Source of the DNA: Parvibaculum lavamentivorans DS-1 | Lineage (GTDB): Bacteria > Pseudomonadota > Alphaproteobacteria > Parvibaculales > Parvibaculaceae | NCBI RefSeq assembly: GCF_000017565.1 | Contig: NC_009719.1 | Span: forward strand, 1,798,001 to 1,862,000 | Length of the DNA stretch: 64,000 nucleotides | Direction of reading: 5' to 3' | Part shown: positions 3-21,646 of the stretch, piece after piece | Layout: every line of letters begins with the position of its first letter | Numbering within the stretch: the stretch's first letter is position 1 | Program-made: the position numbers and the translations under genes | Notes under the pieces: generated by a model | The model's input: the letters and a program-made list of their open reading frames with translations, nothing else | Databases searched by the model: none | Told to the model about the DNA's origin: nothing

Positions 3-701
3 GTCTATTATCATGGCGGCGGCTGGGTCATCGGCGATCTCGATACGCATGACGCGCTCTGCCGCACGCTGGCCAACGAAGCCGGCTGCAAGGTCATTGC
101 GGTTCACTACAGGCTTGCGCCCGAAGCGCCGTTTCCGGCCGCCTTCGATGATGCGTTCGCCGCCGTCAAATGGGTCGAGAGCAACTCATCCGAAATCGGC
201 ATCGACCCGAACCGCATCGCGGTCGCGGGCGACAGCGCGGGTGGCAATCTCGCGGCCGCCGTCTGCCTCCGCGCCAAGGCGGAGAAGAGCCCGGAGATCG
301 CCTTCCAGCTTCTCATCTATCCGGTCACGGATGCGCCGCGCGGCACACAGTCCTACAAGGATTTCGCCGAAGGCTATTTTCTTGAAGCCGAAGGCATGGA
401 CTGGTTCTGGAACCACTATGTCGTCAACGCCGGCGAGGACCCCGCCAATCCCTTCGCCGCGCCGCTTCGCGCGCCGACGCTTACCGGTCTGCCGCCGGCC
501 TATGTCGTCACTGCCGGTTTCGATGTGCTCCGCGATGAGGGCAAGGCCTATGCCGAGGCGCTCAAGAAAGCCGGTGTCGAGGTCGAGTATGTCAATTACG
601 AAGGCATGATTCACGGCTTCTTCAACCTGCAGGGCGCGCTCGATGTATCGCGCGACGCGGTAAAGGCAGCAGCCAAGGCGCTGAAGGAAGCACTGGCCTA
701 G
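3..701 (+). CDS. Alpha/beta hydrolase of the hormone-sensitive-lipase type, 5' truncated
   Basis: The frame is open from the window edge, so the start lies upstream; 232 residues remain. It begins just before the HGGGW oxyanion-hole motif of the HSL (family IV) esterases. The nucleophile elbow GDSAGG lies near residue 76 of the fragment. The acid is probably the Asp in TAGFDVLRDEG and the base the His in GMIHGF, which is the usual HSL order. Members hydrolyse short acyl esters in the cytoplasm; the substrate here is unknown. The stop overlaps the end of the convergent HAD gene by 4 bp. Confidence 0.9.
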   Translation, partial: VYYHGGGWVIGDLDTHDALCRTLANEAGCKVIAVHYRLAPEAPFPAAFDDAFAAVKWVESNSSEIGIDPNRIAVAGDSAGGNLAAAVCLRAKAEKSPEIAFQLLIYPVTDAPRGTQSYKDFAEGYFLEAEGMDWFWNHYVVNAGEDPANPFAAPLRAPTLTGLPPAYVVTAGFDVLRDEGKAYAEALKKAGVEVEYVNYEGMIHGFFNLQGALDVSRDAVKAAAKALKEALA

Positions 702-16356: not shown

Positions 16357-18207
16357 TCAGAAGGCCGCCGCGTCGAGCTCCATCAGCCCGTCCGCGCCCT
16401 GCTTCGCGCGTTCGACCCAGGCGGCGGTCATCGGGATTTCGCGTTCCATCCAGTAGCGCGCGAGCGTCAGCTTGCGCTCGTAGAACGCCTTGTTGCCTTC
16501 GCCTGCTTTCAGCTTGGCAAGCGACACTTTCGCCATCTGCGCCCACATCCAGCCAAGCGCCACCGTGCCGAAAATATTCAGCAGGTCGTAGGAGGCCGCG
16601 CCCGCATTGTCGTAATTCTTCGGCGCGTTCTCCATCAGCCAACCCGCCGCCTCGCCGAGCCGCTTGTAGCCGGCGCGGAGCGGTTCGACATAGGGCTTCA
16701 TCTCGGGGTCGTTCTCGTTCTCCTTGATGAATTCCTCGAGCTTCGCGAAGAAGGTCATGGTCGCGCGGCCGCCCTTTGCCGTCATCTTGCGGCCCACAAG
16801 GTCGAGCGCCTGAATGCCGTTCGCGCCTTCGTAAACCTGGTTGATGCGCGCATCGCGCACGAACTGCTCCATGCCGTGGTCGCGCACATAGCCGTGCCCG
16901 CCGAACACCTGCATCGCATCATTCGCCGCCTGGAAGCCGCGGTCCGTGAAGAACGCCTTGATGACCGGCGTCATCAGCTGCGCCATGTCGGCGGCCTCTT
17001 CGCGTTCCTTCTCGTCCTTGCCGAAAACCTGCAGCGTGAACAGCATCGAGACATACATGGCGAGCGCGCGCGCCCCTTCCACGAAAGCGCGCGACGAGAT
17101 CAGCAGGCGCCGCACATCCGGGAACACCATGATCGGGTCCGCCGGGCCGTCCGGGTTTTTCGCGCCGGTGAGCGAGCGTCCCGCGAGGCGTTCATTCGCA
17201 TAGGTCACGCCGTTCTGATAGGCCACTTCGCCGATGGCGATGCCCTGGATGCCGACGCCCATGCGCGCGCCGTTCATCATGCCGAACATGCCGGCCATGC
17301 CCGCCGATTTCGACTTCTTCACTTCGCCGGTCTCGGTCTTCTTCTCCTTCGGCGCGCCGCCGAGGCGATAGGCCACCGCGTCGTCGAAGTTCAGCACCGC
17401 GGTCGCGTTCCCTTTGATGCCCATCTTCTTTTCGATGGAGCCGCAGGAGACGCCGTTCCGCCCGGTGATTTCGCCCGTCTCCTTGTTCACCAGCATCTTC
17501 GGCACCATGAAGAAGTTCACGGTCGAAAGATCATTGGCGAGCTTGCCGTCCTCGCCCGGAATTTTCGCGATCACCATGTGGATGATGTTGTCCGTCATGT
17601 CGTGGTCGCCGCCGGAGATGAAGATCTTCGTGCCGGTGATGCGGTAGGTGCCGTCTTCCTGCTCCACGGCCTTGGTCTTCATCAGCTTCAGGTCGGTGCC
17701 GCAGTGGGGCTCCGTCAGGCACATGGTGCCGGTCCATTCGCCGGCGATCATCTTCTTCGCCACATGCTCGCGCATCCAGGGCTCGCCCGTCGCCCACAGC
17801 GCCGAATAGGCGGCATTGGTCAGGCCGGGATACATCGCGAAAGCCTGGTTCGCGGACATGCCCATTTCGGCGAAGGCGAAGGTGACGACGGAGGGGAGCC
17901 CCGCGCCGCCCGCCGCTTCCGGCGCGCCGAGCCGGTTCCAGCCATCCTCGCAATATTTCTGGAACGCTTCCTTGAAGCCGGGCGGCGTGCGGACAACGCC
18001 GTTCTCGAGCACGCAGCCATGTTCGTCGCCCACCTGGTTCAGCGGCTGCAGAACCTCCTCGCAGAATTTCGCGCCGCCTTCGAGGATCGCGCCCGTCATG
18101 TCGGGCGTCAGATCGCCGAAGCCCGGCACATCGCTCCGCTTGTCGATTTCCAGAAGCTCGTGGAACAGGAAAAGAAAATCATCCACGGGGGCCTTGTAAC
18201 TCGGCAT
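16357..18207 (-). CDS. Acyl-CoA dehydrogenase, large type with C-terminal extension
   Basis: This 616-residue FAD enzyme oxidises acyl-CoA to 2-enoyl-CoA. The N-terminus SYKAPVDDFLFLFHELL is typical of the long FadE-like group. The FAD-contact segment MCLTEPHCGTDL lies near residues 160-171, and FGGHGYVRDHGMEQFVRDARI near 435-455 covers the base-containing active-site region. About 120 residues extend beyond the core and include DLLNIFGTVALGWMW. ATG 18207 is chosen because AAGGAGCG lies just upstream. It is probably monocistronic. The chain-length preference is unknown. Confidence 0.94.
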   Translation of the reverse strand: MPSYKAPVDDFLFLFHELLEIDKRSDVPGFGDLTPDMTGAILEGGAKFCEEVLQPLNQVGDEHGCVLENGVVRTPPGFKEAFQKYCEDGWNRLGAPEAAGGAGLPSVVTFAFAEMGMSANQAFAMYPGLTNAAYSALWATGEPWMREHVAKKMIAGEWTGTMCLTEPHCGTDLKLMKTKAVEQEDGTYRITGTKIFISGGDHDMTDNIIHMVIAKIPGEDGKLANDLSTVNFFMVPKMLVNKETGEITGRNGVSCGSIEKKMGIKGNATAVLNFDDAVAYRLGGAPKEKKTETGEVKKSKSAGMAGMFGMMNGARMGVGIQGIAIGEVAYQNGVTYANERLAGRSLTGAKNPDGPADPIMVFPDVRRLLISSRAFVEGARALAMYVSMLFTLQVFGKDEKEREEAADMAQLMTPVIKAFFTDRGFQAANDAMQVFGGHGYVRDHGMEQFVRDARINQVYEGANGIQALDLVGRKMTAKGGRATMTFFAKLEEFIKENENDPEMKPYVEPLRAGYKRLGEAAGWLMENAPKNYDNAGAASYDLLNIFGTVALGWMWAQMAKVSLAKLKAGEGNKAFYERKLTLARYWMEREIPMTAAWVERAKQGADGLMELDAAAF

Positions 18208-18265
18208 GGTCGCGCTCCTTCGCTGGGGCTTTGGTTTCTGAACTCGAGGTGTCTCTAAAAACTCA

Positions 18266-18435
18266 GTGTCACCCCGGGGAAAGCCGGGGCCCATGGGCAT
18301 CGCCGCACTCTCCGCCCTTCGGGCTCCGGCACGGTTCGCTCTCTATTCGTCATGGCCCGCTTCAGGCGGGCCATCCACGTCTTTTTTCTTCAAAGCAAAA
18401 AAGACGTGGATGACCCGGACAAGCCGGGTCATGAC
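18266..18435. repeat. Composite palindromic intergenic repeat next to the OLD island
   Basis: The left end GTGTCACCCCGGGGAAAGCC matches the other elements. The right part contains a perfect 15-bp inverted repeat at 18373-18387 and 18397-18411 (ATCCACGTC plus six T, and its complement) with a 9-base loop. This is nested inside GTCATGGCCCG...CGGGTCATGAC. It looks like two repeat elements side by side. Confidence 0.75.
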
Positions 18436-18449
18436 GGGGCGGAAGAAGG

Positions 18450-18461
18450 CTTAAGCCCCCC
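18450..18461. repeat. 12-bp direct repeat, left copy (island boundary candidate)
   Basis: CTTAAGCCCCCC here is identical to 21014-21025. The two copies flank the AT-richer OLD-family gene. It could be a target-site duplication or attachment remnant, but the C-run lowers its specificity. Confidence 0.5.
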
Positions 18462-18650
18462 GGGACGCAGCGTCAACGCCGCCCACCCCGGCCAGCCACC
18501 GGCCCCTAGGGTGTCTCCCCTACTGCCTTCAATTTTGTCAGTAAGCGGCGCGAAATATGGAGGAAAAGGGCGCGGGAGTCGAGGGGGCGTAGCCCATTTG
18601 GCAGCAAATGAATTGATACGTATGCTGCTTAAAGAGTCAGGGGGGATACG

Positions 18651-20966
18651 ATGCGTCTTACTAAAGTTCAAATAAAAGGATATCGCTCGTTCAAGGCAAA
18701 GACGACTATTCTTTTAGATAATCACATTACGGTGCTGCTTGGCGCAAATGATCACGGCAAGACCAATTTTTTGTCAGCGCTTGAGCATCTGAATGTTGAC
18801 CACCCATTTGAAGAAGAGCGGGATTTAAACTGGGACGAGGACGCAGACTCCGGCGAGTTTCCCAGTATTACATATACGCTGAAGCCTGAGAGTGGCGAGA
18901 AAGCGGGTATCTCCGTCGCGCTGACGTTCCAGCGACGGATTGACGTTGTCATGGACAAACTCTCCGCCCTGAATGATCAAAGGAACGGCATTGAAAGTGA
19001 AATCCAACACCTCAAGGCAGCCCTAGAATCGGCCGAAGCCGAAGAACCTGAAGAAACTTCGAATGGCGGCGAAGGGGAAACAAAACAAATTCCTCCAGAC
19101 GCTGCTGTGTCGAAGTTGCACCAAAGCAAGAAAGTTGAGCTTGCTACGCTCGAAGAAATGATCGAACTCTGGGAGAGAGCAAGAGAGGTGCTGTCTGTTG
19201 CGTCAAAGGGCGATCTTTCACAAAAAGTAGCAGATACAGCAATTGCGAACCTGAAGCGAAGCTTAGTGTCATCAGATGCGGAACTGAAGAAGGCGAATGA
19301 GAGGAAGGCCTCCACGTCTGATGCTCTAGCAGCGGCCCAATCCAACGGTAGCGCTACCGGCGTCGATCAAGCAAAGAAAACTCTTAGAGACATAGACGCA
19401 CACATCTCGCGCTGGTTGAAGGAGAGCGCCAGACTTAGACAGTCTATCAGCCGACTTGAGAAACACGTGGAGAGCCAAAAGTCTAAAACCAACAAGGAAT
19501 ACCTGGAAATCATCAACCAGATCGGCTTGCTAAAGGCTGACTGTCCAGAGACCTTTGATCTCGTGAGAAGCGGTGTCGGTGGAAAGCTGGAATTCGTCCA
19601 AGGGGTTGTAACGGAACCTCTGCCGCAGTTTTTGAAGCCGTTCTTGCCAAAGGTTCAAATTTTCTCCTCCGTTGAGCGTCTTCCCGACGAGGTCAACAAA
19701 GATTCCATCCTCAGCGATGAAAACCTCTTTATGCGCGGAATTTTTTACTACGCGGGCCTTGAGAAAAATCATTGGGCAAAAGCATTTTCCCAGAATGATC
19801 ACACCAGTAAGCAGTTAGAAGACGCTAGTGTTTCTCTCAATGAAGTCCTCAGGCGAGATTGGCGGCAAGGACGCGAATTGGAATTCAAGCTTCAGCATCG
19901 CGGCAACGCCAAAATCAATCTCGTAATCAGCGACCCTAAGGTGAAAAGAAGATATGTGCGCGTCTCAAGACGTAGTTCCGGGTTCGCCCACTTCTTTGGT
20001 CTAAAGACCATGCTGCACGCTTACGAACAAGAGGCTCCGTCAGCTTCTTACATTTGGATGTTTGATGAGCCAGGCATGTCTTTGCATCCGGATGGTCAGC
20101 ACGATTTGCTTCAAGCGCTTGATACAATTTCCAAGCAAAACCAAGTGATCTACACGACTCACTCTCTGTTTATGATTGATAAAAATTACCCTGCGCGGCA
20201 TCGCCTTCTTGCCAAGGCTAATGAAGGGACTCGGGTGGATGGAAAACCTTTTCTAGGGAATTGGCGAGCAGCTATTGATGCTTTGGGGCTCGCGCTTCCG
20301 GGCACGATCTTGTTTGCAACCCACGTCCTCTTGGTGGAGGGGGCGTCGGACGCGATATTTTTGAATGCTCTTCTTCAGCGAATGGCGGAGGAGGGAATGC
20401 ACGATCTCGATATAAACCCATTGTCAATCATGCCTGCTGGTGACTCCAAAGAAGCAGATGCTGTGGCACGCATTCTTATGGAGGCATCCATGCGCCCGCG
20501 GGTAGCAGCGTTATATGATGGGGATGATGGCGGGAAGAGGAGGAAGGCAAAGCTAGATAAAGTTCTGGAGAAGGACGCACACGTAGTTTTGGAAAAACAA
20601 AAGACGATAGAAGACTACCTTCCCGGGTTTGAAGATCTCTTTGTTCCAATAGCGGCTGCCTATGGCGCTCGAGTTTTTGGGGGCGATAAAAAGGAAATTA
20701 TTGCCGAAATTACAGCGGCGCTGAAAGAGGCGGGTAAGGACGAGAAGCGTGTAGATGTGGTTCTTGGCGCAATAAAGAAAGCCGCTAAGCTTGATGAGGC
20801 GCCGTCAAAAGTCGGGATTGCTAGGGACTACGCACATGCGTTGCTGGGAGCTGAGCACAAAATTAGCAAAGAAGAAGGAGATCAATTAAAAAAGCTGGTT
20901 GCCATGTTGCAGGGGGCACTCAATTTGCCTACTCGTACCACCGCTCAAGATAGGATTCTGCAGTAA
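18651..20966 (+). CDS. OLD-family ATPase/TOPRIM nuclease, orphan, probably acquired
   Basis: This 771-residue protein starts with an SMC/RecF-like ABC ATPase: KVQIKGYRSFKAK and Walker A GANDHGKTN near residues 31-39. A coiled-coil insertion rich in Glu/Lys/Ala spans about 105-290. The ABC signature-like SRRSSGFAHFF lies near 438, Walker B WMFDEPGMSLHP near 466-477 and the H-loop IYTTHSLF near 500. A TOPRIM domain follows, with LLVEGASDAIF near 558-568 and ALYDGDDGG near 620-628. OLD nucleases cut or nick DNA, and many act in phage defence (OLD, GajA, AriA). No GajB helicase, AriB or reverse transcriptase gene is adjacent. The gene is much richer in A+T than its neighbours. ATG 18651 follows GGGGGATAC. 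Confidence 0.88.
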   Translation: MRLTKVQIKGYRSFKAKTTILLDNHITVLLGANDHGKTNFLSALEHLNVDHPFEEERDLNWDEDADSGEFPSITYTLKPESGEKAGISVALTFQRRIDVVMDKLSALNDQRNGIESEIQHLKAALESAEAEEPEETSNGGEGETKQIPPDAAVSKLHQSKKVELATLEEMIELWERAREVLSVASKGDLSQKVADTAIANLKRSLVSSDAELKKANERKASTSDALAAAQSNGSATGVDQAKKTLRDIDAHISRWLKESARLRQSISRLEKHVESQKSKTNKEYLEIINQIGLLKADCPETFDLVRSGVGGKLEFVQGVVTEPLPQFLKPFLPKVQIFSSVERLPDEVNKDSILSDENLFMRGIFYYAGLEKNHWAKAFSQNDHTSKQLEDASVSLNEVLRRDWRQGRELEFKLQHRGNAKINLVISDPKVKRRYVRVSRRSSGFAHFFGLKTMLHAYEQEAPSASYIWMFDEPGMSLHPDGQHDLLQALDTISKQNQVIYTTHSLFMIDKNYPARHRLLAKANEGTRVDGKPFLGNWRAAIDALGLALPGTILFATHVLLVEGASDAIFLNALLQRMAEEGMHDLDINPLSIMPAGDSKEADAVARILMEASMRPRVAALYDGDDGGKRRKAKLDKVLEKDAHVVLEKQKTIEDYLPGFEDLFVPIAAAYGARVFGGDKKEIIAEITAALKEAGKDEKRVDVVLGAIKKAAKLDEAPSKVGIARDYAHALLGAEHKISKEEGDQLKKLVAMLQGALNLPTRTTAQDRILQ

Positions 20967-21013
20967 CTGCGCCTTATCTTCTTACCTAAGACCACCACCC
21001 CCATAAACCTCCC

Positions 21014-21025
21014 CTTAAGCCCCCC
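21014..21025. repeat. 12-bp direct repeat, right copy
   Basis: CTTAAGCCCCCC is identical to 18450-18461 and lies 48 bases after the OLD stop codon. Confidence 0.5.
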
Positions 21026-21085
21026 TGCCTCAAACTCCTCCGTGGGACGAGGGTTTCGGCTATACTCCGGACCCGGAGGGCAATA

Positions 21086-21646
21086 ATGAGCAATGACGAG
21101 CGATCCGCGCCGGCTGGGGGCGCCGCGCCTCGGGTGCCGCCTTCGGCGGCGGTTCAGGCGGAATATTGGGGTGAGCCGGAGACGATCCGGCCGCATCTGA
21201 CCGCGCAGGCGCCGCTCGCCGTTCTCGATTACTGGCTGGAGCTTCGCGGCACGCGTCCCTTTCCCTCGCGCGGGCAGTTCAATCCGATGGCGATGCGCCG
21301 CTATCTGCCCAACATCTTCCTGCTCGATGCGGCGCCCGATGGCAGTTTCCGCTACCGCGTCGTCGGCTCGCTCATTTCGGAATTTTTCGGCGTCGGCAAT
21401 CCCTCCGGCATGACGCCGGAAGATGTCTTCGGCGCCAATGCCGAGGTCGCGCTGTCGCCGCTGCGCATCTGCCGCGATGGCCGAGCGCCCTATATGCATA
21501 CGGCGTCCGCGAGCTGGCTCTATCGCGATCGCACCTATGTCTTCTACACCGCGCTGCTCCTCCCCTTCGGCGAGAGCGACGATGCCGTCGACAAGATCCT
21601 CTGCTGCGCCGAATTCCTCAGCGAGGAAGAAGCGGCCCGCACCTGA
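21086..21646 (+). CDS. PAS_5 domain protein (DUF1488-unrelated alphaproteobacterial PAS family)
   Basis: This 186-residue protein matches the PAS_5 pattern: LDYWLELRGTRPFPSRGQFNP, MRRYLPNIFLLDAAPDGSFRYRVVGS and a final strand pair YVFYTALLLPFG. No effector domain is attached. PAS_5 proteins are stand-alone alphaproteobacterial sensors or adaptors of unknown partner. A TATACT -10 candidate lies at 21061-21066 without a good -35. GGAGGGC precedes ATG 21086. The gene has normal high-GC codon use, so it lies outside the OLD island. Confidence 0.8.
   Translation: MSNDERSAPAGGAAPRVPPSAAVQAEYWGEPETIRPHLTAQAPLAVLDYWLELRGTRPFPSRGQFNPMAMRRYLPNIFLLDAAPDGSFRYRVVGSLISEFFGVGNPSGMTPEDVFGANAEVALSPLRICRDGRAPYMHTASASWLYRDRTYVFYTALLLPFGESDDAVDKILCCAEFLSEEEAART

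Follow-up and report, generated by a model that had tools for sequence, protein, structure and literature searches.

Gene context defines the classes into which OLD proteins are divided (PMC10568477). Class 1 OLD genes, which stand alone, have already been described, and defence has been shown for several of them (PMC10568477, PMC13261556). P2 Old reacts when RecBC is inhibited and reportedly cuts tRNA, and in YbjD the ATPase domain is needed while the TOPRIM is dispensable (PMC13261556). OLD proteins may also have a role other than defence, as for the archaeal Cran1 (PMC12796447). We analysed an OLD-family gene in the window, a stretch of 64,000 nucleotides (1798001-1862000) that is part of the single 3,914,745-bp contig of Parvibaculum lavamentivorans DS-1, and compared its locus with 26 congener genomes (Table 1). 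Our best explanation, to which we give a probability of about 0.8, is that the gene encodes an OLD-type defence protein of class 1, reached the genome by horizontal transfer and sits in a chromosomal defence hotspot found across the genus. This reading builds on five observations: the foreign composition of the gene, its absence from congeners, the shared left edge of the slot in which it lies, the unrelated occupants of that slot in other species, and an OLD architecture with conserved catalytic-type residues.

Table 1. Features of the OLD locus and contents of the same slot in congeners (window positions, unless residues or a congener locus are given)
Feature	Position	Strand	Remarks
Flanking acyl-CoA dehydrogenase (ACDH) gene	16357-18207	-	
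Composite palindrome	18348-18437		dispersed intergenic repeat, many copies in most congeners
Left CTTAAGCCCCCC	18450-18461	+	native, between ACDH promoter and ACDH start
Candidate ACDH promoter	18554-18582	-	TCGACT-17-CATATT (TCGACA in most congeners); left edge of slot
Variable slot	18588-20998		no counterpart sequence in congeners, which have other genes there (locus alignment)
Candidate OLD promoter	18598-18626	+	within slot; TTGGCA-17-TATGCT, consensus match only
OLD-family ATPase-TOPRIM gene	18651-20966	+	771 aa
OLD protein, ABC head	residues 1-50 and about 330-540		
OLD protein, coiled-coil insert	residues about 100-320		
OLD protein, TOPRIM and C-terminal helical domain	residues 548-771		
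TAAA-N7-TTAA box upstream of PAS gene	21004-21018	+	right edge of slot
Right CTTAAGCCCCCC	21014-21025	+	overlaps PAS promoter box; varies among congeners
Flanking PAS_5-domain gene	21086-21646	+	
Slot in G003			Drt2, E 4e-136
Slot in G011			Drt6, E 3.5e-138
Slot in G001			PD-Lambda-5_A homologue, E 5.6e-74
Slot in G012			kinase related to mad6 and PD-T4-6, E 1e-39
Slot in G006			kinase related to mad6 and PD-T4-6, via 60% identity to the G012 kinase
Slot in G005			Abi_alpha, E 4e-20
Slot in G007			DUF4238
Slot in G008			FRG domain, PDC-S15, E 4.5e-41
Slot in G026			trypsin-like peptidase, no defence annotation
Slot in G023	L047 606-1460		low-GC gene, 284 aa, no family
Slot in G016	L051 6246-7373	reverse	low-GC gene, 375 aa with coiled coil, no family
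Slot in G009			truncated ORF and apparent IS3-type orfA, by reading of the sequence

Firstly, we compared the gene with its surroundings and searched for it in other genomes. Its GC content is 0.49, against 0.64-0.68 in seven neighbour genes, its GC3 is 0.51 (0.79-0.87 in the neighbours) and its codon adaptation to these neighbours is 0.32, where their own values are 0.62-0.83; in 500-bp windows, GC is 0.48-0.51 over the gene and 0.60-0.74 outside. The initial annotation had described a 771-codon gene of low GC and different codon choice and had proposed a check by sliding-window GC and codon adaptation; the measurements confirm it. None of the 26 congeners has an ortholog (26/26), four of them having remote OLD relatives elsewhere in the genome. 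A single-sequence search of genome contigs gave no near relative of the protein, and plasmids and one phage contig gave only partial matches of about 30% identity. Recent, horizontal acquisition of the gene is supported. The cellular roles of some OLD proteins (PMC12796447) would fit another origin, that of a housekeeping or DNA-repair ATPase kept here and lost in all other species, but the GC and codon usage are foreign, the gene is missing in all congeners, its neighbours by position are of defence type, and a class-wide survey gave matches at 1e-20 in just 3/385 genomes, its own included, the other two being about 30% identical to it. Such an origin is very unlikely.

Secondly, we examined the architecture of the protein. 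Pfam models detect AAA_15 (E 2e-27) and OLD-like_TOPRIM (E 3e-8), and the OLD-type TOPRIM follows the ATPase in the same protein; the best PADLOC models are AriA, whose profile spans the ATPase part only, Old and GajA. The N-terminal ABC ATPase has Walker A and B, signature and H-loop, and in an alignment of the protein with 60 relatives, residues G31 and K37 (both of Walker A), R441, E473 and H504 are identical in 61/61 proteins. The C-terminal TOPRIM has the acidic residues E563, D567, D623, D625, E654 and D655; D567 and D623 are kept in all aligned proteins, and E563, E654 and D655 in nearly all. The Walker A, Walker B, H-loop and TOPRIM acidic motifs first read from the translation are thus borne out by domain searches and by conservation. 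The same is true of the long coiled coil reported there: from Walker A to the position of Y337 the protein has 300 residues, where the median of the 60 relatives is 178 and the longest segment among them 238. Its identity to any relative aligned is about 29% overall or less.

In the AlphaFold2 model of the full protein, the head and the TOPRIM are confident and a stretch in the coil has low confidence. A fold search with this model returned mostly SMC, Rad50 and PtuA heads because the ATPase part fills the match list, and the TOPRIM part was therefore folded alone. Together with the C-terminal helical domain it gave a pLDDT of 90, and its best fold matches were the C-terminal regions of OLD proteins (6nk8, Z 11.7, 173 aligned, 3.8 Å; 6njw, Z 11.6), followed by T. 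scotoductus OLD (TsOLD, Z 9.3) and, lower, GajA (Z 7.7-8.5). In a profile search against solved structures, T. scotoductus OLD was the nearest (E 3.8e-25), and the same query gave 5e-11 for GajA, 1e-7 for AriA and 4e-5 for the retron Eco8 OLD. By profile, a class 1 protein is thus ahead of GajA and AriA.

The class itself follows from the gene context. The neighbours are the ACDH and PAS_5 genes, and no GajB, AriB or reverse-transcriptase partner lies beside the OLD gene, in agreement with the earlier remark that no GajB- or AriB-type partner is adjacent. The locus thus has neither the adjacent UvrD-like helicase GajB of Gabija (class 2) nor an adjoining AriB gene as in PARIS; no reverse transcriptase of the kind found with retron (class 3) OLD lies beside the gene in the stretch from 13 to 26 kb of the window, and a search of 17900-21600 for retron RNA families gave no match. 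Around 80 OLD relatives, some of which sit within or beside type I restriction loci, there is no recurrent partner gene. Because the classes are set by context and the gene stands alone, as a single gene with no dedicated partner, we assign it to class 1: it is a stand-alone OLD-family gene, probably for an anti-phage nuclease.

With the class 1 proteins (P2 Old, T. scotoductus OLD, V. cholerae OLD and E. coli YbjD/OldB), it shares the single-gene form and an ABC ATPase followed by a C-terminal TOPRIM with a helical domain. It differs from them in its 771 aa, in an insert of 300 residues in the ATPase head, longer than that of any of the 60 aligned relatives, in its chromosomal location in a defence slot, and in its low sequence identity. 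With GajA (Gabija, class 2) it has the ATPase head and the TOPRIM fold in common, and its C-terminal model fits crystal structures of the class 2 OLD C-terminal region (Z 11.4-11.7), but it has no GajB helicase, either adjacent or recurrent around its relatives, and its coil is longer. The suggestion that the system is possibly undescribed fits weakly: the protein is divergent and its coil longer, yet class 1 OLD genes are known.

We then analysed the edges of the slot. The ACDH and PAS flanks are conserved and collinear in several congeners, and in the locus alignment homology ends near 18587 on the left side and begins again near 20999 on the right. On the left, a minus-strand element TCGAC(A/T)-17-CATATT with -35/-10 spacing is present in the 15 genomes aligned, a set that includes genomes where it directly adjoins the ACDH gene; its spacing shifts slightly in a few genomes, for example G001, and a related element was found in G010 with a looser pattern. 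Its conservation and position suggest that this element is the dehydrogenase promoter. In 11 genomes, divergence starts just past GTCGAG and a further two to four G, and in G007 and G008 the cargo gene runs right up to the left edge with its stop codon. The box at the right edge is, in our reading, a CtrA-like site. The PAS gene is not the direct neighbour in six genomes (G001, G006, G007, G008, G012 and G016), so the right edge is common to part of the genus only. The candidate OLD promoter was one of three matches in a promoter-consensus scan, where 2.1 are expected in shuffles.

The initial annotation had placed the gene on a small mobile unit bracketed by the 12-bp direct repeat, with a palindrome abutting its left edge. 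A unit inserted or excised through these repeats would account for the two exact copies, and the 11-mer core CTTAAGCCCCC occurs at just these two sites in the whole 3.9-Mb genome; by our estimate, two copies of an 11-mer in 3.9 Mb are about the chance expectation. The left copy is native, since congener homology extends through it to about 18587; it is present as CTTAAGCCCCC in G003, G005, G011, G016, G023, G026 and G009, whose slot contents differ from those of the window. The foreign DNA begins 126 bp inside this copy, at the outer edge of the conserved ACDH promoter; the stretch 18462-18586 is native and conserved and includes that promoter, which excision at the repeats would remove. Relatives keep the DNA that lies between the left copy and the gene, so the 12-mer is not the boundary of the insert. 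The position of the right copy reads CTTAAGGCCC in G023, CTTAAGCCCC in G003 and GTTAAGCCCT in G011. The exact 12-bp identity is thus peculiar to the window genome and comes from two native motifs. No relative has an empty site joining at the 12-mer, one of the outcomes that the initial annotation had named as refuting its proposal; no duplication or att repeats bound the insert as in a transposon or integrative element, and no recombinase gene is present. We therefore rejected the 12-mer as a target-site duplication or attachment site, as it lies in native DNA outside the insert, and consider a unit moving through these repeats highly improbable. The occurrence of both copies at one locus is best taken as coincidence, though it may have some meaning. 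What stands of the earlier proposal is an acquired, stand-alone gene with a probable defence function; the repeat-bounded mobile unit does not.

The palindrome at 18348-18437 is REP-like and scattered across the genomes of the genus, for which reason we rejected it as part of an element and as a mark of insertion; weak microRNA matches at this site are chance matches to a long hairpin. The left repeat itself sits within another palindrome, GGCTTAAGCC (GGGCTTAAGCCC in other species), which is conserved between the dehydrogenase promoter and start and may be an operator.

Thirdly, we read the slot in the congeners, with one genome per species, several of them incomplete assemblies, and with families assigned by model score only. 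Thirteen of the 15 readable slots, the window genome included, are occupied, and 9/15 hold a defence or candidate-defence family; no foreign cargo is apparent in G010 and G021. G019 and G025 were left out of the count, their left element not being recognisable; an acyltransferase and an HTH/M78 pair lie near the dehydrogenase start in these genomes. Since Drt2 normally works with an RNA that is encoded upstream of it, "single gene" is a loose description for G003. PD-Lambda-5_A carries a component-A label, and the occupant of G001 may therefore be a partial system. The P2 hotspot, which also includes old, has a lone DUF4238 protein that was validated for defence (PMC9122126). In an all-against-all comparison of twelve slot proteins, the kinases of G006 and G012 were the sole related pair. 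The conserved flanks thus enclose different defence genes from one genome to another: the slot is a defence hotspot, which the first reading of the window had not seen and which emerges from the comparison of congeners. A search of open-licence papers gave none on defence loci in Parvibaculum.

A pair of HTH_37 antitoxin and Gp49-like toxin genes, or a remnant of it judged from sequence, lies beside the cargo in eight congeners (G001, G005, G006, G007, G008, G016, G023 and G026; slot loci L047, L044, L043, L149, L053, L051, L050 and L166) and is missing in the window, which suggests that the pair is an old resident of the slot. In G026 (L043 3200-5800), the PAS promoter region and gene start are partly duplicated, with copies on either side of the antitoxin remnant, apparently the scar of an insertion or recombination event. 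A second slot, between ACDH and SDR in some congeners, was rejected, the insert being by our reading a GNAT-like gene.

We infer both the defence activity and the exchange mechanism of the slot as follows. The slot would be a neutral gap between the ACDH promoter and, in the window and several congeners, the PAS promoter; it holds different low-GC genes in different species, for the most part single genes of a defence type, and the HTH_37/Gp49 pair often comes after them. Occupants would change by recombination or insertion in the gap, without a dedicated recombinase, and selection on the flanking promoters would set its edges; we favour refilling by recombination at the flanks, with promoter selection fixing the left edge. 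In the OLD protein, the ABC head and long coiled coil may detect a state that a phage brings about, such as the disturbed host DNA repair to which P2 Old responds, and this would allow the TOPRIM nuclease to cleave nucleic acid and stop the phage or the infected cell.

Several points count against this explanation: chance insertions under no limit but selection would seldom give so exact a left edge, the occupants were compared only between species, with one genome each, the occupants of G023 and G016 and the peptidase of G026 have no defence annotation, and OLD proteins can have non-defence roles, as for archaeal Cran1 (PMC12796447). The exactness of the edge would be accounted for by fixed-edge cassettes, in which a recombinase acting in trans reads the left element (AATATGG-N17-GTCGAG and a G run) and swaps single-gene cassettes in an integron- or attachment-site-like manner: the point of divergence shifts by no more than a few bases among 11 genomes, cargo stop codons abut the edge in two species, and the contents are mostly single genes. 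The slot would then be a precise gene-exchange site, a cassette system without a linked recombinase, where an unrecognised activity repeatedly puts defence genes, one at a time, at the same base position on the left and the toxin-antitoxin pair often stabilises the slot. However, no integrase or recombinase gene was seen in any slot read, no attC-like repeat or common end sequence was noticed at the cargo ends in these sequences, and the edge coincides with the promoter -35 region, which selection alone could preserve. We regard such an exchange site as unlikely; a dedicated recombinase that refills the slot is possible but unsupported.

The hotspot turns an isolated gene into a rule about a locus, the gap upstream of the promoter of one fatty-acid gene being, in this genus, a place to search for immune genes. 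By their position, the unannotated occupants (284 aa in G023, 375 aa in G016 and the G026 peptidase) are good candidates for new defence genes. The slot also offers a compact system for studying the movement of defence genes without mobile elements, and the long-coil OLD protein is useful for probing the function of the coil. The P2/P4 phage hotspots (PMC9122126) and the Pseudomonas cDHS1/2 (PMC10250203) likewise have fixed flanks and exchangeable defence genes, whereas the Parvibaculum slot is no more than a chromosomal gap, about 1.2-2.4 kb long and mostly with one gene, at which no prophage or integrase was seen. Oliveira et al. (2017, PMC5635113) described hotspots that lack mobile elements and show recombination in the core genes beside them; the Parvibaculum slot shares with them a rapid turnover of genes between conserved core genes and no recognisable mobility genes, and differs from them in having a left edge that can be placed to within a few base pairs and that falls on a promoter.
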